From assembly GCA_029248525.1 (NCBI GenBank), contig JAQWJE010000043.1:62001-126000 (forward strand): DNA of 64,000 nucleotides. Direction: 5' to 3'. This DNA comes from Candidatus Binatia bacterium. GTDB lineage: Bacteria > Desulfobacterota > Binatia > UBA12015. Shown one piece after another: positions 894-47,034 of the stretch. Under the pieces are notes generated by a model. That model saw only the letters and a list, made by a program, of their open reading frames with translations. It made no database searches and was not told the origin of the DNA. The position numbers and the translations under genes were made by a program. Every line of letters starts with the position of its first letter. The first letter of the stretch is position 1.

Positions 894-1439
894 CTAGGCG
901 CTGCGCAAATGCAGAGGTTGGCCCTCGCCGGCAAAGCCGCGAACCGACGGTGGCGGCGAGGATGCGGGTGGCTCTGTGGCACGCAGCAAGACGGCTGCTT
1001 CGGCGACTTCCTCGGCGGTGAATTCACGAGTGGAATGGCAAAATTCGACCATGATGCCATTGGGGTCCTGCATATAGATTGAGATGCACCACCCGTGGTC
1101 GACTTCGAGCACGTCGTAGCCGTTGCGGTTCAGTCGGCTGCGATGTTCGTCGAGATCCTCACGAGTCGGTGCATCGAAGGCCACGTGATTCACCCATTCC
1201 GGCAAACCGAGCCCCGTCGAGATCGCCGTGGTGGGCGGCGAGGGAATGTGTTCGTCGTGAATTTCCCAAAACGCAATCATCGAACCGTCCCCGGTATCGT
1301 AGAAAAAATGCTTGGACCATCCCCCCGTAGGCGTGGGGCCCACTTCGACCTTGCTGAGCGTAAATCCCATCGCCTCGCGGTAAAAACAGTCCGTGGCTTC
1401 AGTATTATGGGAAGCGAACGCCAAATGATGATAGGGCAT
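894..1439 (-). CDS. VOC family (glyoxalase/extradiol dioxygenase fold) protein
   Basis: A 181-residue protein with paired beta-alpha-beta-beta-beta modules of the vicinal oxygen chelate superfamily. Candidate metal ligands are H5, E59, H85 and E132, in the expected H/E/H/E order. I start at the ATG at 1439 (MPYHHLAF) because an AGGA-type ribosome site lies about 9 bases upstream; an in-frame start at 1505 would add 22 residues with no fold. The last 30 residues are proline/serine/arginine-rich and probably disordered. Family members include extradiol dioxygenases, glyoxalases and fosfomycin enzymes, so substrate cannot be assigned. It converges on the preceding oxidoreductase and is transcribed away from the oxygenase gene at 1607. 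Confidence 0.8.
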   Translation of the reverse strand: MPYHHLAFASHNTEATDCFYREAMGFTLSKVEVGPTPTGGWSKHFFYDTGDGSMIAFWEIHDEHIPSPPTTAISTGLGLPEWVNHVAFDAPTREDLDEHRSRLNRNGYDVLEVDHGWCISIYMQDPNGIMVEFCHSTREFTAEEVAEAAVLLRATEPPASSPPPSVRGFAGEGQPLHLRSA

Positions 1440-1567
1440 TTCCAGAGTTCCTTTCTCCCGCAGTGTCTCCGGCACCTGCCCCAGCGTCAAGAGCCGGCCA
1501 CTCATATTCCAATCCCGAGGAACGGAGCCCGGATCCGCGACAAGAATAGAGAAGACCCGGGAATCGC

Positions 1568-1593
1568 GAAGAGAAGAGAAGAAAAGAAAAGAG
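1568..1593 (+). other. 26-base uninterrupted purine tract
   Basis: A run of only A and G (repeats of GAAGA type) ends about 13 bases before the GTG start of the phytanoyl-CoA dioxygenase-family gene. It may act as an unstructured ribosome standby region. A separate GGAG at about 1594-1597 is the likelier Shine-Dalgarno element. Confidence 0.5.
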
Positions 1594-1606
1594 CGGAGAC
1601 GAAATC

Positions 1607-2407
1607 GTGACCAGACCCATCGCCACCAGCCTCACCCCAACGGAGAAGAACGATTGGGAAGAAAACGGTTTCTTCGTGCGACGTGGCTTTGCCTCGGGCC
1701 CGACCTGCCGGAAACTCTGGGATCGCGCCGTGGAACTGGCCCGGGCGGAAGTCGCCGGAGAATCGATCGCTCCGGCCTACGTCCTGCGTGAAACGCGCCT
1801 CGACCAGCCAGGACGGCTCGGAGAAGAACGGGCCTCCAAGATCTTTCGCCTGCACCGAGACGACCCGACCTTCCATGCCGGCGCGACAGACCCCGCGCTT
1901 CTGGCCATCATGGCCGACCTTCTCGGGCCGGATGTCGACTGTTTTCTCTCACAATTCATTTTCAAACAGCCCGGGGCACTGGGGCAACCGTGGCATCAGG
2001 ACGCCTTCTACTTCCCCTTTGGTCGCGATCTTCAGGTCGGAGCCTGGTTGGCGATCACCGAGGCCGGGGCGGAAAACAGCCCGCTTTGGGTGCTGCCGGG
2101 ATCGCAGACCGAAGCAGTGCATGACGCCATTACCGACCCGCGACCCGATGCCCCCTTTGGTTACGTCGAGATCGTGGACCACGAAATGGACGGCGCCGAG
2201 CGTGTCCTGATGCAACCTGGCGATTTGCTGGTCTTCCACGGACACCTCATGCACCGCTCGACAGACCACGAGGCTGGCGAGGTCCGCGCCGCGATGGTCT
2301 ATCACTACGCGGAGAGCGCTACCGTGGATCGCACCGAGCAGATCTGGGGCCAGCCCAGCCCGAACAATGACTGGATGACCGTCCTGCGCGACCGTGCGCC
2401 CGTTTGA
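1607..2407 (+). CDS. phytanoyl-CoA dioxygenase (PhyH) family Fe(II)/2-oxoglutarate oxygenase
   Basis: A 266-residue member of the PhyH family, non-heme iron and 2-oxoglutarate dependent hydroxylases. The iron-binding HxD is H130-Q-D132 in the motif PWHQDAFYFP. The distal histidine is probably H216, and R227 in EVRAAMVYHYA would bind the 2-oxoglutarate carboxylate. All facial-triad elements are therefore present. Translation starts at GTG 1607, preceded by a purine tract with GGAG. It lies 41 bases before an MFS transporter on the same strand and is probably co-transcribed. Substrates in this family range from phytanoyl-CoA to ectoine and small secondary metabolites, so the substrate is not fixed by sequence. 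Confidence 0.85.
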   Translation: MTRPIATSLTPTEKNDWEENGFFVRRGFASGPTCRKLWDRAVELARAEVAGESIAPAYVLRETRLDQPGRLGEERASKIFRLHRDDPTFHAGATDPALLAIMADLLGPDVDCFLSQFIFKQPGALGQPWHQDAFYFPFGRDLQVGAWLAITEAGAENSPLWVLPGSQTEAVHDAITDPRPDAPFGYVEIVDHEMDGAERVLMQPGDLLVFHGHLMHRSTDHEAGEVRAAMVYHYAESATVDRTEQIWGQPSPNNDWMTVLRDRAPV

Positions 2408-2448
2408 AGTTGCAGGCCCTCCCATCCCCCCGCTAACCTCGGTGCAAG

Positions 2449-3831
2449 ATGTCTGATGTACCGGAGGACCCCACCGACCCCGTCCCGCCAACGCGAACGC
2501 GCAGGCCCTGGTGGATTCCTTTTTTTCTCGGGGCCATCCCCGACGTTGACGCCAAGTCCCTCACCCTTCTGGGAACTGTCGGTCTGGCCGTCTTCTTTGA
2601 GGCCTATGACCTCTCCTTGCTCACCTCGGCGCTCAGCTTCATTGCCGCTGATCTCGAAATCTCCGAAGAAACCCTCGGCCTTTGGACCGGGCTGATCCGG
2701 CTCGGTGGGCTGCCGGCGTTCGCCTTGTTGCCTTTTGCCGACCGCTTCGGGCGCCGCAAGGTGTTTCTGGCCTCTCTTCTCGGGCTGAGTCTGGCCACTT
2801 TGGCCAGCGCGTTCAGCCCGACGATCCTCGTCTTCGCCCTCCTGCAAATGCTGGCTCGGGTCTCGTTCATCACATTCTCTGCCACCGCAATCGTGATTAT
2901 TTCCGAGGAATTCCCCGCCAAGCATCGCGGCTGGGGCATGGGAATCTTCGGTGCACTGGGCGCTCTTGGCTACGGACTCTCGGCGATCCTTTTCAGCCAG
3001 ATCGAAGTCCTCCCAGGTGGCTGGCGAGCGCTCTATCTGGTGGGAGCCGCGCCTCTGCTCTTCCTGCCGCTTTTCTTGCGCAACGTTCCGGAAACCAAGC
3101 GCTTCGCCGAGATCCAGCAACAGCGTGACGAGCTGGAAGGCCCCACCAGCAACCTTCTCGGCTGGGCCCAACCCATTCGGGATCTCTTCACAACCTATCC
3201 GCAACGCATGCTCGGGGTGACTCTGGCCTGCTTTATCTATGCCGCCTCCGAGTTGGCCGTGATGCAATTTGTTCCCTATTTCATTCTGGAAGAGCATGGC
3301 TGGGAGCCATGGGAATACTCGGCGCTGATCCTGGTCGGCGGACTGATCCCGCTTTGGGCCAACGTCGCGGCCGGACGCCTGGGTGACCGGTTCGGCAGGC
3401 GCCCCGTCGGCATGGTCGTGATGTGCATGCTGCCGCTCGGTGCGATCAATTTTTTTCACGTCTCGAGCGATAAGCTCGCGATCTTCTGGATCATCCTTTC
3501 GTTTGGCAGCGTTGCCGCCAACGTCATGCTGCGGGCGATTGTCACCGAGTCCTTTCCCACAAGCCAACGCAGCACGGCGGCGGGATGGATGACCCTGACG
3601 GGAACGGTTGGCGCAGCACTTGGCTTATGGTCGATCAGTTGGGGCCAAAGCATGGGGTACTCGCTACCCGCCGTGGAGAGCATCGTCAGCTGTTTTGCCA
3701 TCATTGCCGGCCTCGCGCTCTTCCTGCTTCCCGAGACGCGCGGCCTGGAGCTTGAAGAAATCAGCGACGATCCGCACGCGGCCCCACAAGCCGGTCGCCC
3801 CGCGACATCCGGCTCCGAGAACCCGGCCTGA
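2449..3831 (+). CDS. MFS transporter, sugar/organic-acid:proton symporter type
   Basis: A 460-residue membrane protein with 12 predicted hydrophobic segments. The cytoplasmic loop motif after helix 2 is DRFGRRK, repeated in the second half as GDRFGRR, and the C-terminus carries PETRGLELEE, typical of the sugar-porter and metabolite:H+ symporter branches of the major facilitator superfamily. A proline-rich N-terminal tail of about 30 residues precedes helix 1. It follows the PhyH-family oxygenase after 41 bases and may import that enzyme's substrate or a precursor, which is inference from proximity. A hairpin follows directly after the stop. Confidence 0.88.
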   Translation: MSDVPEDPTDPVPPTRTRRPWWIPFFLGAIPDVDAKSLTLLGTVGLAVFFEAYDLSLLTSALSFIAADLEISEETLGLWTGLIRLGGLPAFALLPFADRFGRRKVFLASLLGLSLATLASAFSPTILVFALLQMLARVSFITFSATAIVIISEEFPAKHRGWGMGIFGALGALGYGLSAILFSQIEVLPGGWRALYLVGAAPLLFLPLFLRNVPETKRFAEIQQQRDELEGPTSNLLGWAQPIRDLFTTYPQRMLGVTLACFIYAASELAVMQFVPYFILEEHGWEPWEYSALILVGGLIPLWANVAAGRLGDRFGRRPVGMVVMCMLPLGAINFFHVSSDKLAIFWIILSFGSVAANVMLRAIVTESFPTSQRSTAAGWMTLTGTVGAALGLWSISWGQSMGYSLPAVESIVSCFAIIAGLALFLLPETRGLELEEISDDPHAAPQAGRPATSGSENPA

Positions 3832-3837
3832 TAAAAC

Positions 3838-3866
3838 GGCCCGGCCACCCATGGGGTGACCGGGCC
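3838..3866. terminator. hairpin terminator between convergent MFS and TonB-receptor genes
   Basis: GGCCCGGCCACCC (3838-3850) pairs with GGGTGACCGGGCC (3854-3866) around a three-base ATG loop: 13 positions with one mismatch. Read on the minus strand the stem is followed by GTTTTAT, a short U-run, so it best suits the minus-strand TonB receptor ending at 3958. It may also stop the plus-strand MFS transcript. Confidence 0.7.
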
Positions 3867-3957
3867 GGATGCCAGCAATCTTGCGAGTCCGGAGCCCGAG
3901 GAGACCGGCTCGTCCCGCAGAACTCGCCCGTCAGAACTCGTGGTCGGAACTCGTGGA

Positions 3958-6807
3958 TCAGAACTCGTGGGTAATTTCGAAACCGAAGGCTCGACCCTGA
4001 CCGTAGTAATTCAGGACCGTTCCCAGAACCCGCTGCGAATTGTTCAGCACACCGGTAATCGGTTTCACATTGACCATGTTCTCGCCGAAGAGTGCGACCG
4101 AAGTCTGGCCATCATTGAACAGGTAGGTCAGACGCAGGTTCACGTTGCTATAGGCCTCTTGCAGCGCCGCATTCGGCGTGGCCCCGTTGTTCAAATTGGG
4201 ACTGTGCCACTGAACATCGCTTTGGTAGGACCAATCCACTCGCGGCAACATCAGGCCCGAGAAGAACTCCATGGGAAATTCGACCGGAAAAGGTGTCGTC
4301 AATGCGAGGTAGGAGTTGATCGACGGGACGTAGGAGAACTTCCGTCCCGAGACGTTCTCCGGCAAACCGGTGAGAGGATTCTCGGCCGTGCGCCACTCGC
4401 CGATGCGGGCATCCTGCAAGCCGAGGTTGCCACTGAGCTGAATGAACTCGCGCGGTTGGAACGAGAAGTCGAACTCGATCCCGCGGATATTTGCCTTGGG
4501 CACGTTTCGGGTAAAGGACGCCGAGACGGTCAGGCACTCGTCGAGACGGTCGTCTGTCGGGAGGCAGCCATCTTCCGGAAAAAGCGTTTCGGACGTCGGC
4601 AGCTGCAGGTCCTGATACATGGTCACAAAGCCGGTCAGGTTGGCGGTCAACATCCGATCGAGCCAGACCGTCTTCAAGCCGATCTCGAAGGCATCGGCGG
4701 TCTCGGAATCGAAATAATCTCGATTGCGGGGATCATTATCCAGGGCCCCTCCATTGAAACCGCCGGTCTTGTAGCCCCGAGCGAACTGAAAATAACCCAT
4801 CAAATGGTCGATCGGCGTATCCAAAAGCAGATCTTCGGGCATCGTGGCCTGCAAGGAGATCATCGGCGACCAGTTGGTGAAGTACCTTGTCCCATTCCAG
4901 GGCTCAGGATCACACATCACATCGCCCTCGCGGTACTCGACGACATTTCCTTCGGCGTCATACTCCGGGATCGGACCGGTTCCCTCTCGGCATTCGCCGG
5001 AGCTCGGAAACCGGTTGTTCTCGTAGGGATCTTCACCCGGTCCTGCCAGCAGAGGAACGCAGGTTACCTCCTGGCCCAAATCGTTGACGTTGCCGGGTCC
5101 CGTACCCGGCTGGCAAGCAACCGGCCCCGGGTAAGCGCCCTCAACCGGCTGGATCCGCAGACGGTTGACCGATTTCTTGGTCCGCCCGAAACGAATGCCA
5201 GCGGTTAGATTCAGCCAATCGTTCAAAGCGGCATCCGCCTGACCAAAGATCGAGAAGTCCCAGTTCTTCGTCTTGAACTCCCCATCGGTAATCCCGCCGT
5301 TCACGTCGGCAAGCGTATTGGGGAGAACCTCGAGAAGAGTATTGTCATAAACGGACTCCATCGAGCCAAAGACGCCGGTAACAAAACTGATGCGTCCATC
5401 GAGCGCGGCACCCGTCAACTGTATCTCCTCGGTGATGGACCAACCGTCCCCGGGGGAACCCCCATAAGGGTTGTCGCCGGTCGAAGAGGCTACAAGAATA
5501 TCGTATTGCGTCCCGTCGGCGTCGAAATTGCGATACTCGTTGTACCGGCGGCCCGACGTCAGGAACTGTGTCTGCAGATCTTCGAAAACCGCCAGATCGC
5601 CGATATCCCAGGTCAGAGAACCCCAGACCATGGACGATTGCTGCTTGTAGAAATTCGGCGCGTCCATGTTGACCTTGTAACGAAGCGCCTCCTCGCAAGC
5701 CTCTTTGTACTTCGCCTGATTGTAGGTTCCTTCCGGCGGCCCGCCCAGGGCGGCTGGCAAATCCATAATCGCCTCGAACTGCGAAGGTTGAATATACATG
5801 CAGCGGGAGCCGAGGCCTCGGCTATGGGTCTGGTTCCACAGACCCGAAACATCCAGCACCAGGTCATCGGTGATCAGGAAGCGCAAGCTGCCGAGGAAGC
5901 CCAGATTGTCCTGATTGCCCAGCCACTGGTCGTTGTAGATATTTTTGACAAAGCCACCCTGATTGGTGGAGGCAAAGTTTGCGCGCACCGCCAGGCGGTC
6001 CTGAAAGTCGCCGAAATTGATCGGCACATTCAACATCGCGCGGGTCTGTACGTTGTTGTTGGTCGTATAGCGCAACCGCAAGGAGCCGCCGAGCTCGGAG
6101 TCCGGCTTGGCCGTGGTGATCCGGATTGCGCCACCAGCGCTGTTTTTCCCGAACAAGGTGCCCTGTGGACCCCGCAGAACCTCGATCTGAGTGACATCGA
6201 CCATCTCGGTGATATTGCCCTGCTGTCGCGGCAGATAGACGCCATCCACATACAGGCCGACCCCCTGGTCAAAATAAGGCGCCGGGAAAGAGCCGATCCC
6301 GCGAATCACGAAGGCCGCACCCGCACCCGTGTAGATTGCCTGAAGGTTGGGAACGAGTTCTCCGATCTCGAGCAAGTTGGTCACGTTGGCATCGATGAGG
6401 TCATCAGCCGAGAGCGCGGTCACCGCAACCGGCGTGTCCTCGAGAAGCTCGGTACGGCGACGCGCGGATACAACGATCTCTTCAATCCTGCGCTGCTCGC
6501 CCCTCGACATTTTCTTGGCTTCGCCGTCGGCAAGAAGGGTCTCGGCCTCTTGTTCGCCCATGGCGTCTGCGGTGCTTGTATCATCGATCGTGCTGGTGAT
6601 CGCCGGCTCATAGGCAGGCTCCGGAAGCGGATCCTGCAACGTGCGCTCGGGTGGCGCTGCGGCCTCGGCGGCCGACCCTGCCTGCAGGGCTCCGGCGGCG
6701 TCTTCCTGTGCCTGTGCGAGACCCAAGCCGCTTGCGACATGAAAAATTACCGCAAAAATTACATACTTGACGAACTGCAGATTCGACCGACGACCACTCA
6801 AATTCAT
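3958..6807 (-). CDS. TonB-dependent outer-membrane receptor
   Basis: A 949-residue outer-membrane beta-barrel transporter. The start at 6807 (MNLSGRRSN) is chosen because AGGGGG lies 6 bases upstream and a signal peptide with the core FVKYVIFAVIFHVASG ends at AQAQE; an in-frame upstream ATG at 6957 lacks these. After a low-complexity linker comes a TonB-box-like EEIVVSARRR, then a plug domain with VPNLQAIYTGAGAAFVIRG and the QIEVLRGPQGTLFGKNSAGG signature. The barrel ends in a terminal phenylalanine (ITHEF), as needed for BAM recognition. Its sequence type resembles receptors of sphingomonads and other degraders that import hydrophobic or polymeric substrates; the ligand is unknown. Confidence 0.92.
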   Translation of the reverse strand: MNLSGRRSNLQFVKYVIFAVIFHVASGLGLAQAQEDAAGALQAGSAAEAAAPPERTLQDPLPEPAYEPAITSTIDDTSTADAMGEQEAETLLADGEAKKMSRGEQRRIEEIVVSARRRTELLEDTPVAVTALSADDLIDANVTNLLEIGELVPNLQAIYTGAGAAFVIRGIGSFPAPYFDQGVGLYVDGVYLPRQQGNITEMVDVTQIEVLRGPQGTLFGKNSAGGAIRITTAKPDSELGGSLRLRYTTNNNVQTRAMLNVPINFGDFQDRLAVRANFASTNQGGFVKNIYNDQWLGNQDNLGFLGSLRFLITDDLVLDVSGLWNQTHSRGLGSRCMYIQPSQFEAIMDLPAALGGPPEGTYNQAKYKEACEEALRYKVNMDAPNFYKQQSSMVWGSLTWDIGDLAVFEDLQTQFLTSGRRYNEYRNFDADGTQYDILVASSTGDNPYGGSPGDGWSITEEIQLTGAALDGRISFVTGVFGSMESVYDNTLLEVLPNTLADVNGGITDGEFKTKNWDFSIFGQADAALNDWLNLTAGIRFGRTKKSVNRLRIQPVEGAYPGPVACQPGTGPGNVNDLGQEVTCVPLLAGPGEDPYENNRFPSSGECREGTGPIPEYDAEGNVVEYREGDVMCDPEPWNGTRYFTNWSPMISLQATMPEDLLLDTPIDHLMGYFQFARGYKTGGFNGGALDNDPRNRDYFDSETADAFEIGLKTVWLDRMLTANLTGFVTMYQDLQLPTSETLFPEDGCLPTDDRLDECLTVSASFTRNVPKANIRGIEFDFSFQPREFIQLSGNLGLQDARIGEWRTAENPLTGLPENVSGRKFSYVPSINSYLALTTPFPVEFPMEFFSGLMLPRVDWSYQSDVQWHSPNLNNGATPNAALQEAYSNVNLRLTYLFNDGQTSVALFGENMVNVKPITGVLNNSQRVLGTVLNYYGQGRAFGFEITHEF

Positions 6808-31036: not shown

Positions 31037-32158
31037 TCAGTTCCCCGCCTGCTCGAACTCCAGTCCGACATCCGGGAAATGACCCAGAAGGTCCTCGCCC
31101 ATGCCCCGAGCAACCGAATCGATGCCGAACAACTCGCGAACAAAGGAAGTCACGGCATGGTTCACAATCGGCCAGCCTTCTCGCACCGGGAGGGCATCTT
31201 CCTGACACCCATCGGTGCCCAGTCGCGCGATGTTTTCAGGCACCGGCAGCCCGGCGCGTTCGGCAATATCGATGATCCCGCCATCCTCATCCCCGATCGC
31301 ACAGAGGTCGGAGACAGCAAGGTGGCCGCCTCTCTCGAGGATCAGAAAGCGCTTCGGCCCCGGAGCGGCTGCGTATCCATCTCGCAACCCTTGCAGGCCG
31401 ACCGATTTGTCGATGGCCCCCGCGATCCACAAGGAGGGGCGATCCGGGAAATTACCGGATCGACTGCCACCGCCAGTCATCGGCACGTAGGCCAGAACAT
31501 CAGCTTCCGACGCAAATCGCGTCGCTGTGCCAGCGCCGGCCGAGTGGCCCACGATCACGAGGCCGTCGGTCACCGCCAGTCCCTCCAGCAAATGCCCGGG
31601 CGTGCCGGATGCTTCCACCAGAGCGTCCACAGCCATCCGGGTGACCACCACATCGTCCATCGGCATATCCGGAGCAAAGCCAAGTGCTGCGGCAAGACCG
31701 CGCTCGAGGTAGTCCACGGAGACCACGACAAAACCCCAACTAGCGAGGTGGGCCGTCATGAAAGTCGATTGGGTGCGAAAGGCAGAATAGCCATGCGCGA
31801 AGATCGTGGTGGGGAACGGCGCATCGCCCGAAACCTCGATGTCGCGGTAGGCCTCCTCCACAAAAGGAGGGTTCGCATCGGGGTCGAGCAAGCCATCGAT
31901 CACCGGGGGCAACCATGAGCGGATGAAATACTCCTCGCGGTCCACGCCCGCCTCGGCGCCGGGATCCGCCGGATACCAGATCTCGACCTCACGATCCGCT
32001 AGATTCAAAGTGGTCACACCGGCCACATAAGGCCCCGGAACATCGAAAAATTCGGTATCCGCGCTTGAGGAGCCGGAACAAGCGGCCAGACCAAGGCTTA
32101 AGGTTGCGACCAAAAATCGGGTGAGAGACGGAGACGGAGACGGACATTGGTTAATCAT
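31037..32158 (-). CDS. alpha/beta hydrolase lipoprotein (chlorophyllase/PAF-hydrolase-like)
   Basis: A 373-residue protein with a lipoprotein signal (LSLGLAAC, acylated C27), then an alpha/beta-hydrolase domain. The oxyanion loop is IFAHGYSAF near residue 120, the nucleophile S206 sits in VIVGHSAGAG, and the likely catalytic His is in ERGGHLAVSD. The long beta-strand start with PYVAGVTTLNLADREVEIWYPA resembles chlorophyllase, platelet-activating-factor acetylhydrolase and dienelactone-like secreted hydrolases. The substrate is probably an ester reached in the periplasm. It is followed after 8 bases by the serine hydrolase lipoprotein. Confidence 0.85.
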   Translation of the reverse strand: MINQCPSPSPSLTRFLVATLSLGLAACSGSSSADTEFFDVPGPYVAGVTTLNLADREVEIWYPADPGAEAGVDREEYFIRSWLPPVIDGLLDPDANPPFVEEAYRDIEVSGDAPFPTTIFAHGYSAFRTQSTFMTAHLASWGFVVVSVDYLERGLAAALGFAPDMPMDDVVVTRMAVDALVEASGTPGHLLEGLAVTDGLVIVGHSAGAGTATRFASEADVLAYVPMTGGGSRSGNFPDRPSLWIAGAIDKSVGLQGLRDGYAAAPGPKRFLILERGGHLAVSDLCAIGDEDGGIIDIAERAGLPVPENIARLGTDGCQEDALPVREGWPIVNHAVTSFVRELFGIDSVARGMGEDLLGHFPDVGLEFEQAGN

Positions 32159-32237: not shown

Positions 32238-34068
32238 TTATCGGCGCCGCTTGACCTGAATCACAATTGGGGCAGGAGATTCATCTCCGATCTCGACGCT
32301 CACAACCTTGCTTCCTCGAACAGGGCCACGAGACACGCGAATGCGTGCCACCCCGGGATTCAAAAAATCGAAATCGAACTTGCCTTCCTGATCACTAAGC
32401 ACGTCCAGCCACCGCCCATAACCAACCGGCGTCGAAAGCATCGCGCCCGCGACAGGCAACCCGTTCTGGTCCACAACCTGCCCTTGCAAACCAATCTGGC
32501 CTGGCCGCTCCATTTCGGAGCGAGGATTCCCGACCAGTGGGAGGTAAGCTCCGTGCTGTGCCCACGGCAAACTGATCTCGAGCCGACGCTCGGCCTGCCC
32601 CCGATAGACCAATTCCCCCCTTTGGATGAACCGGCGACGGCTGGAGAGCGTATAAGTCCCATGGGGCAAGTTGGGGAAACGGAAATAGCCCGATGGTCCA
32701 GTAATGGTACGCAACTTCAGCAGTCGCCCCTCTGGACTCCGTCCTTTCAATTGGAGCCCAATACCAGCGACAGGTTCTGCGTCGACATCAACAAAACGAC
32801 CGGCCACGTCCAGTAATGCTGCCGGAGTGCTCAGCTTGTTTTCAAAGTCGGCAACGGCTGCCCGAGCCTCGGGGAGGATATCACTCCGCTCAGCGATTTG
32901 ATTGCTCAGCTCGTCAGGGTCCTCGTTGATCGAATAGATTTCCTCGGTGCCGTCGCTATTATGCACGTATCGCCAATCCAACCCTCGAACAAAGTGGTGA
33001 GTCGTGGCAGCAGGCTCCCCATTCAAACGAACTTCCGCCTCGCCAACCAGATGATCCGTGCCGGTGGGTGTCCCATTGACAATATTCGGAAGAAGCGTTC
33101 TTCCCCAGCGACCAGAAACCTGCGGCAGGCCCCCGAAGTCCAACAGCGTCGGGAACAAGTCAACCATGGACACCAGATCGTCCCGAAGCACACCTGCCGG
33201 AACCGTATCCGGCAATGAAAACACCAAAGACGTTCGAAAACCCTGCTCGTAAATGCTCGTCTTGCCTCTGGGCTGCCCGCCCAGAGCGGCACCCGGACTG
33301 CCCAACTGCCATCCATTATCCGAGGCGTAGACAATCAAGGTATTTTCGTGCAGTCCGCGACTTTCCAGCTCAGCGAGGACCTCGCCAAGGACATCATCCA
33401 TCCACAATAAATTCGCGAGATACTCGATCGTCCAATTTGAAAGGCCCAGGCCCCAAAAACGAGCCCTATAGGTATCCGCCGCATTGAATGGGCTATGCGG
33501 CAGCTTCGGTGCCAGCCAGGCAAAGAAGGGAGCGCCCTCCGTGGTATCGAGGAAATCGCGAAAAGGACCTATGCCCTCCCGCCCGAATTGGTCGCCGACA
33601 CTGGAAAAGAAACCCGAACAGCACGATGTCGCCATCCCGGAGGTGAAGCCTGCGTCCAGATAGGTGCCCTCCCAAAACTTTCCACCCTCGAAAGATACGT
33701 AGCCTCGACGTGCCAGCTCGCGGGGCAAGGTACGAAAGTGTGCCGACTCGCGACGATATGGGATATCACCCGAGGCAGCTTCGATGGAGCCCAGCCGCTG
33801 CATCCATTGGACAGAATGCATCCCGGACAAAAAAGATTCGCAGCGACGGCCAACAGGTACTGGCCGTATTGTGCGCATTTGTAAAAACGGTGCCGGACTC
33901 CGCAAGCTCGTCGAGGTTCGGCGTCAAAGCGAATGGATGGTCGAGAAACCCGGCATGGTCCCAGCCGTGGTCGTCCCCAATAAACAAAACGATATTCGGC
34001 TGGTTCGCGCCAGCGGCGCCCGAGCCCAGAAGGAAAAACATCGCGACAAGAATGATATATTTACGCAT
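32238..34068 (-). pseudogene. secreted sulfatase with carboxypeptidase-regulatory-like repeats, frameshifted at the active site
   Basis: The N-terminal frame starts at 34068 (MRKYIILVAM, signal peptide to AAGANQ; GGGGA upstream) and carries NIVLFIGDDHGWD, the sulfatase metal site, then C72 in STCWPSLR, the formylglycine position. It then leaves frame. The rest (SGMHSVQWMQRLGS onward, VYASDNGWQLG) reads in the frame shifted by one base and ends at 32238. Removing one base from the A6 run at 33829-33834 (T6 in the mRNA) restores CWPSLRIFLSG, full family spacing. The CxPSR arginine is a leucine. The C-terminal 200 residues form two carboxypeptidase-regulatory-like beta domains. It may be a true pseudogene, a sequencing indel, or a slippage site. 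Confidence 0.7.
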
Positions 34069-34215
34069 CGTCGTCCCCAACAGGTACCCTAAGGCGCCGT
34101 TCCCTCCCAGCATCTAATTTGGCTTGAAAAAATCTTCTTTATGGCGTCCTTTCGCTCGGCATGGCGAACCTCTGTCTGCACCAGCTAAAGAAGCGATATG
34201 CAGGAGTCCGGATCG

Positions 34216-39686: not shown

Positions 39687-40862
39687 TCAGAAGTTTCGTG
39701 GCAGACCGAGACCGCGAGTCGCGATGATATTTTTCTGGATCTCGCTGGCACCGCCACCGATGGTATCCACGACCGTATAGCGGTAGCTCCGCTCGAACCG
39801 GCCGTCGATCGGAGCCTCGTCTGAGTCGGGGCGCAGAACCGCGTCCGGGCCCATCATGTCCAAGGCCGCATTTGCGGCTCGCTGACCGCTCTCGTTCATG
39901 AAGAGCTTGTAGTAGGATGCCTCCACCGTCGGAATAGCATCCCGCAAAGCCTTGGACACCACCAACCGCTGGAGATTCCTCGAGACCTGTAGTTCCGTCG
40001 CGATTTGCGCGACCCGCCGGCGAACTTCGTTATCTTCCTGAAGGGGTTTGCCATCCCGCGTCGACGTTCGCGCCCAATCAACGATCGCCTCGACCTTCTT
40101 CTCCAGAACCCCAATCGGCATCATGGTGAAGCGTTCGAGATCAAGTGCCTCACAGACGTAAATGAAGCCCTGTCCCACCTCGCCGACAACATGGTCGTCG
40201 GGCACGAAGACGTCATCAAAAAAAACTGCGTTCGTACGCTCGTCGCCGATCGTATCAATGGGGTCGATCTTGAGGTTGGGATGATCCATCGGGATCAGAA
40301 ACAACGTGATGCCGCGATGCTTGTTGTCGGGATCCGTGCGCGCCCCTACCCAATACCAGTCTGCAAAATGTGCCGATGTCGTCCAGGTCTTCTGGCCGTT
40401 GAGCATCCAGCCATCGCCGACCTTGTCCGCTTTCAGCTGCATGCTTGCGGCGTCGGAGCCGGCGCCGGGCTCGCTGTAGCCGATGGCGAACTCAACCTCG
40501 CCGCGCATGATCTTGGGGAGGAATTTATTCTTCAAAAACTCGGAGCCATGGCGAATCAGGGTCTTGCCGACCTTGCCGACCGATTTCCCGGGCTGCGGTG
40601 CACCAAACCGAGCAAGCATCTCGCAGAGAATGAAATCATAGATTCCCGACCGCGCCTGCCCGCCATATTCCTTGGGCCAGGACATGCCGAGCCAACCGTT
40701 TTCCCCCAACTGCTGGATAAAGCGGCGTTTCGCAGGCGTGTCGACGGTTTGTGATAACTGCTCGCCTTGGGGATCGAAAATCTCCGGGGAAGCCACACTT
40801 TCCAAAAACGTGCGGACTTCATCCTTAAACTTCAGCTCTTCGGGACCGAGATCAAAATCCAT
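39687..40862 (-). CDS. acyl-CoA dehydrogenase
   Basis: A 391-residue FAD acyl-CoA dehydrogenase. The start MDFDLGPEELKFKDEV at 40862 matches family N-termini, whereas the in-frame start at 40916 adds 18 unlike residues. The flavin signature IGYSEPGAGSDAASMQ and the C-terminal IGGGASEIQKNIIATRGLG are complete. The type resembles large-subunit FadE enzymes of steroid and branched lipid oxidation; no short partner is adjacent. It converges on the P450, with 72 bases between the stops and no clear terminator. It probably oxidises acyl-CoA to enoyl-CoA in the cytosol and feeds electrons to ETF. Confidence 0.92.
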   Translation of the reverse strand: MDFDLGPEELKFKDEVRTFLESVASPEIFDPQGEQLSQTVDTPAKRRFIQQLGENGWLGMSWPKEYGGQARSGIYDFILCEMLARFGAPQPGKSVGKVGKTLIRHGSEFLKNKFLPKIMRGEVEFAIGYSEPGAGSDAASMQLKADKVGDGWMLNGQKTWTTSAHFADWYWVGARTDPDNKHRGITLFLIPMDHPNLKIDPIDTIGDERTNAVFFDDVFVPDDHVVGEVGQGFIYVCEALDLERFTMMPIGVLEKKVEAIVDWARTSTRDGKPLQEDNEVRRRVAQIATELQVSRNLQRLVVSKALRDAIPTVEASYYKLFMNESGQRAANAALDMMGPDAVLRPDSDEAPIDGRFERSYRYTVVDTIGGGASEIQKNIIATRGLGLPRNF

Positions 40863-40938
40863 GGGCAAAAGCCTATCAGCACCCTGAGCGGAGTGCACGA
40901 AAGAATCTCGGCGCAAAATACCAAACGCACGGCGAGGA

Positions 40939-40962
40939 CAACGGGCCCGACCAGGCCCGTTG
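40939..40962. terminator. GC hairpin downstream of the SPFH gene
   Basis: CAACGGGCC and GGCCCGTTG form a perfect nine-base stem with loop CGACCA, 20 bases past the stop of the minus-strand SPFH gene at 40983. No U-run follows on either strand. Confidence 0.45.
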
Positions 40963-40982
40963 CGCCGATATTCTTCCAGTGG

Positions 40983-41870
40983 CTATTTGTCCTCGCCAAG
41001 GTGCATCAACGGCAGTGGCGTAGGACTGTCGGAATTGAGGAAATAAACCTTGGCAGCCGGGTCCTTGGAAATCGACTCGAGCGCCTGCAAGGCCTGCAAT
41101 TTCACGTAGTTCGGGTTATCACCGATCGCTTTATTGATACTGGCAATCTCATACGCTCGCGCATCGGCGAGGACTCGACGCATCGCGGCTTCCTCTTCGG
41201 CCGCGCCTCTTTCGGCTTGCGCTTGGGCGATCTTTTGTTGCTGCTCGGTTCGGAACCTTTCCAGTTCGGCTTTTTGTTTTTCGACTTCCTGTTCCCGTTC
41301 CTTTTTCTCCTCGATCGCCTTGGCGATGAACGGCGGCAGCGAAATATCACGGATCAGGACCGCATCTACCTGCACACCCTTGGGGGTCAGGTACTCCTGC
41401 ATGCCCAGAAGGATAGCCGCCTGCAGTTTTTCCTGAGTCTCTTCGAGGAAGAAATCTTCTGCTCGCCGCACGGTCTTGCCCTGCTCCCGGATCAACGAGC
41501 GAAGCTTCGGAACAAGTTGCACCCGAAGCACATCCGTCAAGGTCCCGGTCTCCCTCAAAATCCGAGGGGTATCTTCGCGGATGATATTATACTGCACGCT
41601 CACATCGACCTGCGTCTGGAGCTGATCCTGACTGGGGACCTGAGCCTTCTCGAGGTGTGTCTTTTCGCGCACATCATAGGAGCGGAAATCGTAGAGGGGG
41701 TTGACCGGAATATGCAGCCCGGCCTCATAAGGATCCTCGAGGACATCGCCGAAAAGCGTCGCCACAGCCACGTGCCCCGGCGGGACGCTCTCATAGAACC
41801 GACTTCCCACCAAAACCAGAACGATCATCACGATGGGCACTGCCAAACCTGCAAAAGTACTTTTGTTCAT
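40983..41870 (-). CDS. SPFH/Band 7 (prohibitin-like) membrane protein
   Basis: A 295-residue protein with one N-terminal transmembrane helix (FAGLAVPIVMIVLVLVGSRF), a Band 7 domain (residues about 30-180, YESVPPGHVAVATLFGDVLE) and a long charged coiled coil rich in Glu/Lys/Gln (about 200-255). This is the layout of prohibitins and HflC/HflK-like scaffolds, which form ring assemblies in membranes and modulate proteases. AGGGGGAG before ATG 41870 fixes the start; a longer frame to 42062 has no such site. It is a single-gene unit here, lacking an NfeD or HflX-type partner. Its role in this organism is unknown. Confidence 0.88.
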   Translation of the reverse strand: MNKSTFAGLAVPIVMIVLVLVGSRFYESVPPGHVAVATLFGDVLEDPYEAGLHIPVNPLYDFRSYDVREKTHLEKAQVPSQDQLQTQVDVSVQYNIIREDTPRILRETGTLTDVLRVQLVPKLRSLIREQGKTVRRAEDFFLEETQEKLQAAILLGMQEYLTPKGVQVDAVLIRDISLPPFIAKAIEEKKEREQEVEKQKAELERFRTEQQQKIAQAQAERGAAEEEAAMRRVLADARAYEIASINKAIGDNPNYVKLQALQALESISKDPAAKVYFLNSDSPTPLPLMHLGEDK

Positions 41871-41943
41871 ATCTCCCCCTGTCACAATCCATGCCGCAGG
41901 ACCAACCCCGCCCCGCCAAACCGCCCCAAACGGGCCTGACCGC

Positions 41944-42615
41944 TCAGTCCAGCTGGAACTTCTGGCGCAGTTCGAGGAGCGAGTCGCCCCAATGGTCTTC
42001 CCATTGTACTCCCAGAAGACACTTCGCGCGACGGCCCAGCGCCCAACCTTCGGTGATCGCATCCATCACGGGCGGCAGCAGTTCCGGCTGATAGAGGACC
42101 ATCTGCAAAGGCCGGCTGGCAATGATCATCGCAGGATAGGGTGCCGGCGTTTGCGCTACCGTAAAACTGACCACACGAACCTCGCCGAGCGGCGTTGTAT
42201 CGAACCCTGTGAGTACGTGAAAAAGGTCGTGCAGCTGAAAGCCTCTCTCGGCAAGGTGCCCAACGTCTTCGCCACGCGCTCGATGGGCCGGAATGAAGGC
42301 GGATTCGCGCAGCAGGTTGGCATCGAGCTCGTTATCGTCCAGATAATGGGCAAAGGTTCGACCGAGGGTTCCCTCCGGCAGATTACGGAGCGCATCGACA
42401 TCCGGCGAAGGGCTCAAATACCGGTCCGCAAGCATCTGCTCGGCAGCCGGATTCTTGCGAGCCAGCGCGTCGAATCCGTTCAAGGCATCCGGGTCGCCGT
42501 GTTCCATATAGTCCAGAGCGAGCGGAACCGAGGCTCGTGGGTCCCAACTTTTCAGAGACCGTAAAAGGCTTTCTACCAGTTCGGGCGCGAGATCGGGCGA
42601 CTCCGGTGCGCTCAT
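41944..42615 (-). CDS. Coq4-like protein
   Basis: A 223-residue protein with the zinc motif HDxxHx11E of the Coq4 family, seen here as H129-D130-L-F-H133 and E145 in LHDLFHVLTGFDTTPLGEV. Coq4 takes part in ubiquinone head-group modification in eukaryotes and some bacteria, where it has been linked to oxidative C1 decarboxylation. Its ATG overlaps the stop of the preceding amidohydrolase by 4 bases. A menB gene lies 14 kb away, so the host might make both menaquinone and ubiquinone, or this protein may act on another quinone or isoprenoid. It is the most confident ubiquinone-linked gene in the window. Confidence 0.8.
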   Translation of the reverse strand: MSAPESPDLAPELVESLLRSLKSWDPRASVPLALDYMEHGDPDALNGFDALARKNPAAEQMLADRYLSPSPDVDALRNLPEGTLGRTFAHYLDDNELDANLLRESAFIPAHRARGEDVGHLAERGFQLHDLFHVLTGFDTTPLGEVRVVSFTVAQTPAPYPAMIIASRPLQMVLYQPELLPPVMDAITEGWALGRRAKCLLGVQWEDHWGDSLLELRQKFQLD

Positions 42616-44282
42616 GAGCGCACCACCCGCCCGGGCAAGGCACCTTCCGGGTCAACTTGATCCACGCCCTCTTCGCGCAAAACTTCGCCGGCGACCACCA
42701 CCGCCCGCATTCCTTCAGCCGGTGCAATCAATCGATCGGCGCCTCCGGGAAAATCATGCACGCGCTCCAGTTCGCCGCACCGAACCGTTGCCGGATCAAA
42801 GATCGCCAGATCGCCCGTCTGACCGGGTGCGATTCGACCGCGATCAGCAAGGCCGAAGAGATCGGCGGGCTCGGAGGTGAGCTTGCGGACAGCCTCCTCC
42901 ATCGAGAGGACCTCTTTCTCTCGCACCCAGTGGCCCAAAAGGTGCGTCGAGGCACCGGCATCGCAAAGCTGGCTGGCGTGCGCGCCCGCATCCGAGAGTC
43001 CCAAAACCACGGTTTTGTCCGACAACAACTCGGCAACGACGTCCTCGTCCCGATTGGCGACCGCCATTCGGAAGGAGACCGCCAGTTCTGTCTCGAGGGC
43101 GAGATCCAACATGGCCAGCACCGGCGACTGTCCCTTTCGCGCGCCCACATCCGTCACCGAGACTCCTGCAAGACTGTCATCGGTCGGGTGTCGCGACACC
43201 CACATATGATCCATCGAGAAAATCCCGATGGTCTTTTGGGTGGCCTCCTCGAATGCAGCACGGAAATCAGGGTCCGAGTACAGGCGCATCTTGCCAGCCT
43301 TGTCGGCCGCAAATGCAGGCTTCATCGCCGGGATACTGCCGAAGGGAAACGGGGCGCCCATATCAAATTCGAGCATCAAGGGTCGACCCGTTACCTGCGG
43401 ATAGACCTCGATTCCGGCGGCCTGATGCTCTGCGGTTTTCTCCAGCACCTTGCGGTGCCCATCGGGGCCGAACAAGCCGCCGAGCAGCGCGGTCCAGGTC
43501 ACCGGACGCCCGATCCGCTGCTGAATTTCAGCCAACTCATCGAAAAGGAGGCCCTGCCCGATCGTCGACTGGAAGGTGCCCTTGCCAGCTTCTCGCAAAC
43601 AATCCCCCAGCGCGAGAATTTCCTCGTGTGCCGCCATCCGGCTGGGGACCGGGTTGCCATCATAACCTACATGAGTCGGTGCCTTCGAGGTCGCGAAGCC
43701 TAGCGCTCCCTCCGCGAGGGCAGCGGCAACCAGAACCCGCATCTCCTCGATCTCTTCGGGACTCGCTTCGCGCGACACGGCGTCTTCTCCCATCACCCAG
43801 GTCCGGATCGGGGTATGCCCGACCATGGCGCCGACATGGATCGCCGTACCGCGAGACTCGATCGCCGACAGGAATTCTCCGAACGTGCTGAAAGGCCATT
43901 CCGCACCCAATCCTGCCTGCAGAGCATCCAGCGACATTCCCTCGACGTTCTCGAGGGTCCGCAGGATCAAATCGCGATCACGTGGCTTGGTCGGTGCCAC
44001 ACCAAAGCCACAGTTCCCGAGAATCACGGTCGTCACTCCATGCCAGGGCGAAATCGTCATCATCCGATCCCAGAACACCTGTGCGTCGTAGTGCGTGTGA
44101 ATGTCGACAAACCCGGGAGCGACTATCGCACCTTCGGCATCCACCTCGCGAGCCCCCTGCCCCTTCAAGGCACCGATATCCACGATACGGCCGCCACGCA
44201 CGCCCACATCCCCGCGGAATGCAGCCGCACCCGTTCCATCGACAACCGTGCCCCCTCGCACGAGAAGATCGTACTCTGCCAT
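42612..44282 (-). CDS. N-acyl-D-amino-acid deacylase-like amidohydrolase
   Basis: A 556-residue metal-dependent amidohydrolase. The first metal motif is PGFVDIHTHYDAQVFWD, a metal-bridging cysteine lies in GNCGFGVAP, and a catalytic Asp is in LGLSDAGAHASQLCDAG. A C-terminal beta domain closes the barrel. D-aminoacylases and dihydropyrimidinase-like enzymes share this pattern; release of acyl groups from N-acyl amino acids or acyl homoserine lactone-like amides is plausible. The Coq4-like gene overlaps its end by 4 bases. A paralogue lies at 45313-47034, with a secreted phosphatase-fold gene between them. Confidence 0.87.
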   Translation of the reverse strand: MAEYDLLVRGGTVVDGTGAAAFRGDVGVRGGRIVDIGALKGQGAREVDAEGAIVAPGFVDIHTHYDAQVFWDRMMTISPWHGVTTVILGNCGFGVAPTKPRDRDLILRTLENVEGMSLDALQAGLGAEWPFSTFGEFLSAIESRGTAIHVGAMVGHTPIRTWVMGEDAVSREASPEEIEEMRVLVAAALAEGALGFATSKAPTHVGYDGNPVPSRMAAHEEILALGDCLREAGKGTFQSTIGQGLLFDELAEIQQRIGRPVTWTALLGGLFGPDGHRKVLEKTAEHQAAGIEVYPQVTGRPLMLEFDMGAPFPFGSIPAMKPAFAADKAGKMRLYSDPDFRAAFEEATQKTIGIFSMDHMWVSRHPTDDSLAGVSVTDVGARKGQSPVLAMLDLALETELAVSFRMAVANRDEDVVAELLSDKTVVLGLSDAGAHASQLCDAGASTHLLGHWVREKEVLSMEEAVRKLTSEPADLFGLADRGRIAPGQTGDLAIFDPATVRCGELERVHDFPGGADRLIAPAEGMRAVVVAGEVLREEGVDQVDPEGALPGRVVRS

Positions 44283-44306
44283 GAATTCTGTCCTCTTTCC
44301 CTCTAC

Positions 44307-45311
44307 TTAATTACACTGCAAGTCGACCTGGACGCCGACATGATCCGACGGCCAGCAAACCGGATTCGGAAGCGGACCGCACGTCGGAGCAAACGGATTT
44401 GGTGCGTCTGCAAACAGAGCCGTTCTGGCGCCATCTCCGTCCGGATCACCGGCCGGCTCGATCCTGCCGGAACATCCGGCGCCCGGCAGGCTCGGCACCA
44501 CGAAAATAAAGTCGATGCGAACCGACTCCCCGAGCGCCGGCGATTCCAGACCTTCGAGGCTGCCGTCTTCGCGACCGGCAGTGCAGCCGATACCGGTTGT
44601 CGGATCACACTCCGGGTGACCAGCCTCCAGATACGCATCAGCCCAGCCACGTTCGGTAAATTGTCGATAGGTAAAACTGCCCGGGCGGGCATTGAAATCA
44701 CCCGCAACAAGCGCCGGATTCGGTCCCTCATGGCGTTCTTCAATCCATTGGGCCATCTGGACCGCCTGGCACTCCCTGCGGGTTCCGGCCCCTGCATCCT
44801 CACAGACGGCCGGACAGTCGATGGCATCGCAGCGATCCCTGCCGCCATCAGCACCAGAGGCAAGGTGCGTGGAGAAGACGTCGACCGGCCCGGTCGGATG
44901 GTCCACCTGCACATGCAAGACGGCTCGAAACTCGCCAAAGAGCCGCAACTGGTCCGCTTGCAGAATCGGATAACGCGAAAGCACGGTTTCGTCGTCCACT
45001 CTCAGCAAAACGTCGCCTTGCACGACGTCATAAGGGAAGGGACAAACCGTCGCCGCCCAGCTCTCGAGGAGGTCGACGGAAGGGGGAAAAATCTCCTGCA
45101 GCGTCACCACGTCAGGGCACCCGGCGTCCCGCACCCACGCCGCCAGGAGTTCCGATCGATCCTCCAGTCGGCACGATGCACTCTCGGCCGGGCAAAAAAT
45201 ACCGTGCAGAAAATTAAGATTGGCCAGCGTGATATGCGGCGCAGGCGAACTCGATCCCCCACATCCCGCCAGAACCAACGCAATCAGGATTGCCTCGACA
45301 CGCCCTCGCAT
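44307..45311 (-). CDS. endonuclease/exonuclease/phosphatase family lipoprotein
   Basis: A 334-residue protein with a lipoprotein signal (MRGRVEAILIALVLAGC, acylated C17) and an EEP fold. VVTLQEIF supplies the catalytic Glu, VDVFSTHLASGADGG and LVAGDFNARPG the Asp/Asn, and a final PSDHVGVQVDLQC the Asp-His pair. Many cysteines suggest disulphides outside the cytoplasm. The family includes sphingomyelinases, inositol phosphatases and nucleases; an extracellular phosphodiesterase is plausible. Start 45311 follows the stop of the upstream amidohydrolase by 1 base (TAG, A, ATG). A longer start at 45380 lies inside that gene. Confidence 0.85.
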   Translation of the reverse strand: MRGRVEAILIALVLAGCGGSSSPAPHITLANLNFLHGIFCPAESASCRLEDRSELLAAWVRDAGCPDVVTLQEIFPPSVDLLESWAATVCPFPYDVVQGDVLLRVDDETVLSRYPILQADQLRLFGEFRAVLHVQVDHPTGPVDVFSTHLASGADGGRDRCDAIDCPAVCEDAGAGTRRECQAVQMAQWIEERHEGPNPALVAGDFNARPGSFTYRQFTERGWADAYLEAGHPECDPTTGIGCTAGREDGSLEGLESPALGESVRIDFIFVVPSLPGAGCSGRIEPAGDPDGDGARTALFADAPNPFAPTCGPLPNPVCWPSDHVGVQVDLQCN

Positions 45312-45312
45312 T

Positions 45313-47034
<1,722 letters not shown>

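Follow-up and report, generated by a model that had tools for sequence, protein, structure and literature searches.

Organization of the split sulfatase gene

The window analyzed here, a 64,000-base stretch of a 4.27 Mb source genome (59 contigs, 98.9% complete), carries on its minus strand a sulfatase-like gene that can be read only in two successive frames (Table 1). The first half, reading MRKYIIL...TASTCWPSLR, begins with an N-terminus that by eye resembles a signal peptide, passes through the metal motif GDDHGW to the nucleophile motif and closes with out-of-frame residues before its stop codon. The second half belongs to an open frame of 561 aa from stop to stop (33923-32238), in which no additional stop or shift in reading frame was found. 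Pfam Sulfatase (PF00884; curated cut-off 25 bits) matched each half separately, at profile positions 1-57 in the first (E 1.4e-10, 41.4 bits) and 79-300 in the second (E 6.3e-21, 75.4 bits). The original prediction had proposed a one-base frame change that joins two stretches of conserved sulfatase just after CWPSLR, at an A6 run on the plus strand (33829-33834), and the frame change in the assembly, the presence of the run and the conserved nature of both halves were all confirmed.

The neighboring genes are ordinary. One flank carries an aldolase/adducin-like gene of class II together with an alpha/beta hydrolase; the other has genes for an esterase-like protein, a beta-lactamase-family protein and a MatE transporter. 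The window gave no match in Rfam.

Table 1. Coordinates of the split gene and associated features in the window
Feature	Position	Strand	Remarks
Divergent (putatively recombinant) block	32893..34169	.	1277 bases aligned with the same-species allele, identity 84.9%
First half	33766..34068	-	ATG at 34068 to TGA at 33766-33768; 100 aa ORF
Nucleophile Cys motif CWPSLR	33855-33838	-	In the first half
Frame junction	33829..33838	-	One-base difference vs the intact allele aligned at 33836; T6 run after it
Second half	32238..33833	-	Separate frame, FLSGMHS through the stop at 32238; holds the remaining sulfatase domain and an SGSH_C-like part
Carboxypeptidase-regulatory-like domains	32274..32801	-	Two matches in this range, at the C-terminal end of the protein

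An intact allele in the same species and a divergent block

The within-species comparison was made with one same-species genome, MAG UBA12015 (presumably the same as G007; the record is listed as Myxococcota), in which the gene is open. The intact allele (locus L061) lies on a 3,862-base contig, DLYX01000206.1, as a frame of 620 aa from stop to stop, and the G007 protein and the DLYX01000206.1 protein are 100% identical. It bears the motif CWPSLRTFLSG and matches the Sulfatase domain along its full length (E 2.5e-41, 142.4 bits). A structure prediction of this allele, in which the two window halves were the only other rows, reached a mean pLDDT of 30.5 and was discarded, and a scan of viral contigs with its catalytic domain found nothing.

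Between the window and the same-species genome, 468 mismatches were counted in 48,393 bases, and the most divergent part is a 1.28-kb block on which 1084 of the 1277 aligned bases agree with UBA12015. The block starts upstream of the start codon and ends within the gene, with identity changing sharply at both edges; the flanks agree at 99 or 100 of 100 bases in each 100-base stretch, except for a six-base in-frame difference at 32139-32144. Correspondingly, dS falls from 0.39 inside the block to 0.012 in the 216 codons of the gene that follow it. The mosaic is plain in the alignment, and it is read most simply as homologous exchange involving a divergent strain or a close species, with either of the two lineages compared as the possible recipient. 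A close paralogue in its own genome is unlikely as the donor of the block, the next best match of the second half in that genome (G000) having E 8.7e-15. That the lesion falls inside this block is a point absent from the original prediction. Elsewhere in the window, milder divergence from the same-species genome occurs at approximately 40751-45750 and 1000-5250, with a maximum of 28 mismatches per 250-base interval (41001-41250).

Position of the extra base and soundness of the assembly

Upon alignment with the intact allele, MAFFT and blastn agreed on 33836 as the site of the extra base, which immediately precedes the T6 run and does not lie within it. This placement is the more parsimonious one, short of proof, given that the bases beside the junction also differ between the alleles. 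A slip within the run, as originally proposed, would put Ile directly after CWPSLR, and this residue occurs in 0/23 other members of the clade described below, which have Thr (13), Ser (7) or Ala (3) in that column (all 23 aligned; 22 read by a pattern allowing T, S, A or I, and L164 by eye). The proposed length change in the run is therefore not what the alignments favor. By length alone, a lesion would fall in the 33-base motif of this approximately 1,830-base gene with a chance of approximately 2%, a coincidence that was noticed post hoc.

A single-base lesion adjoining a homopolymer, with no other decay, is also what an assembly or sequencing artefact would look like: the gene would be intact and the base a consensus error, caused for instance by merging of reads from two coexisting alleles inside the divergent block, and the block coincides exactly with the place where the species has two alleles. 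Against this, the extra base aligns outside the run, and away from contig ends it is the only uncompensated one-base difference in approximately 116 kb compared, of which 48,393 bases are from the window and 67,489 from other sulfatase loci. The latter represent 21 of 29 such loci, with eight having no passing match. The sulfatase loci contributed one 2-base difference (L026:1098). The remaining one-base gaps in the window vs. G007 are compensated nearby, are net in-frame or lie near a G007 contig end; the last group comprises those at 3943 and 26642, of which 26642 sits at the start of L065 at a place that L066 spans without a gap. Moreover, among the runs of six or more bases that were compared (36 from the window, 59 from the sulfatase loci), 94/95 showed no change of length, and the sole run with an adjoining gap is the one beside the lesion. 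These comparisons speak for a sound assembly, although one base, especially in a block with two alleles, stays beyond their reach, and we consider an artefact unlikely but still a serious competitor of a genuine break.

Far less probable is that slippage on the T6 run, either transcriptional or translational or as phase variation, restores the frame and switches the enzyme on and off, as the original prediction had also entertained. The run does lie at the junction between two conserved halves, but the difference aligns before it, and its slipping would leave Ile where all 23 relatives have Thr, Ser or Ala. Further, the intact allele has T5 at this place and most other relatives lack a T run there, runs of this length are invariant between the two genomes as given above, and six-base A/T runs are common in the window (12 A6 and 4 T6). 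The change of length in a repeat run, variable among relatives, that marks phase-variable genes was therefore not seen here.

Age of the break

The two alleles, compared over 388 codons of the block, have a dN/dS of 0.204. Among 21 relatives (L164 not included), 107 columns are conserved to at least 80%; the broken allele departs from the conserved residue at 17 of these and the intact allele at 18. Where the alleles differ from each other, more relatives side with the intact one at 26 sites and with the broken one at 20, a split that hints weakly at slightly relaxed selection in the broken allele, or at nothing. Given the low dN/dS, the absence of any excess of change at conserved columns and the lack of a second stop or shift, the break appears to be late. 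The remainder of the allele looks like selected protein, which places the break after the two alleles had largely diverged. A single lesion, an intact close relative and no relaxed selection are the features by which a recent pseudogene would be recognized and are what is seen here, and the suggestion that the lesion is very recent in an otherwise conserved gene has thus held up well.

Among the other sulfatase homologues of the genome, a Thr-type gene (L027; C49:813125-814012, minus strand) contains an in-frame TAA, as does its counterpart in the same-species genome (99.96% match), and it is perhaps an older, shared pseudogene. While L027 indicates that older broken copies may occur in this species, the view that the gene described here is likewise an old, long-decaying copy, an ordinary pseudogene with stops and decay elsewhere, is scarcely tenable in light of its one lesion, its dN/dS and its unremarkable conserved columns.

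A clade of sulfatase homologues without the motif arginine

When 148 genomes of the class were searched at E 1e-70, 24 matches were obtained, distributed over 12 genomes including the own one; apart from the window copy, there are 23 matches in 11 genomes (L061 and L148-L169). All 23 and the window copy keep the nucleophile Cys, and none of them has Arg at the motif-Arg position, where Leu (20 members and the window copy), Met (2) or His (1) is found instead. The original prediction had noted the change of the motif arginine to leucine; this is true of the letters, but it is no lesion, with Arg being present in 0/23 relatives. As the replacement is clade-wide, Leu is not a sign of decay.

The best solved relatives are carrageenan sulfatases and arylsulfatase A, and the comparison with formylglycine-dependent sulfatases (SulfAtlas S1, PF00884) reveals both what is shared and what is replaced. 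In addition to the domain, the metal ligands and the Cys, the columns of Asp13, Asp14, Lys113, His211, Asp317, Asn318 and Lys375 (AtsA numbering) are kept in 23/23 members. Unlike in S1 sulfatases, the Arg55 of CxPxR and the His115-equivalent base are replaced throughout the clade, the His115 column being Trp in 23/23, followed by Glu or Asp in 20/23, and the window copy is frameshifted in addition. Six canonical Cys-type homologues of the own genome, aligned together with the clade, have Arg in 6/6 and His115 in 5/6. At the curated cut-off, the genome yielded a single FGE and no anSME. When the 28 intact homologues of the genome were aligned, the nucleophile column held Thr in 20 rows (counted by eye), and canonical Cys plus Arg in seven only.

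A tree was built of the 23 members together with eight further homologues from the own genome, of which seven have Arg and one lacks it. All clade members lie to one side of a branch supported at 76/85, which makes a single origin of the clade likely but not firm. The homologue without Arg is L030 (C49:675262-676602, minus strand), a Cys-type protein with CKPSM that sits beside the clade on a long branch. A phylum-wide search of 395 genomes, a different sample, at E 1e-70 gave a match in G000 only, which says only that the clade is uncommon outside its class.

Discussion

We interpret the locus, with a probability of roughly 0.7, as an allele in a Myxococcota bacterium that has recently lost its function and lies partly on a recombinant tract. 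The gene would code for a sulfatase-like hydrolase of the non-canonical, Arg-less clade, probably a secreted one. The catalytic half of the gene sits on a 1.28-kb tract that looks as if it derived from homologous recombination with a divergent strain or a close species; it is the exchange and its direction, not the mosaic itself, that we infer. Before, during or after this exchange, a one-base insertion at the active-site motif would have put the metal ligands and the nucleophile Cys in one frame and the remaining enzyme in another, and no active enzyme should result from the broken allele.

The residues missing from the clade are those that, according to Barbeyron et al. 2016 (PMC5066984), handle formylglycine: Arg55 stabilizes the formylglycine, and His115 acts as the base in releasing sulfate from the formylglycine intermediate. 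On these assignments, the clade lacks both formylglycine-handling residues. The same source, which covers 4058 sequences, gives the share with the motif Arg as 99% and names eleven exceptions; nine of these have Leu or Ile, come from Lentisphaerae and Planctomycetes and 'may be inactive'. The present clade resembles these nine putative sulfatases in carrying Leu at the motif Arg, but differs from them, as they are presented there, in that it comprises 23 members in 11 genomes of one Myxococcota class and in that His115 is also gone. A precedent for turnover by an unmodified Cys can be found in the choline sulfatase of Ensifer meliloti, a Cys-type enzyme that is reported to turn over slowly without formylglycine (PMC6189696); unlike the clade, however, it keeps CxPxR (a peptide ending in CAPAR), and it was unmodified owing to the expression host. 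Our literature search found no paper on the clade itself; subscription journals lay mostly outside its coverage, so we do not claim that none exists.

Given that the Cys and the metal site are retained along with the remainder of the active site, it is conceivable, though on balance doubtful, that the clade members are not dead sulfatases but working enzymes that use an unmodified Cys, or else another chemistry or substrate. If this were true, the replacements Arg55 to Leu and His115 to Trp would have swapped precisely the residues that handle formylglycine.

In itself, the frameshift would be of an ordinary kind, one of approximately thirty sulfatase homologues having been lost, probably in the recent past. 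More generally, the locus illustrates that a 'mutation' in a motif can be misread when relatives are not compared. The altered active site of a conserved and often multi-copy clade may outweigh the frameshift in interest, and the clade could serve to test whether environmental Arg-less 'sulfatases', for which inactivity has been suggested in print, have a different chemistry.
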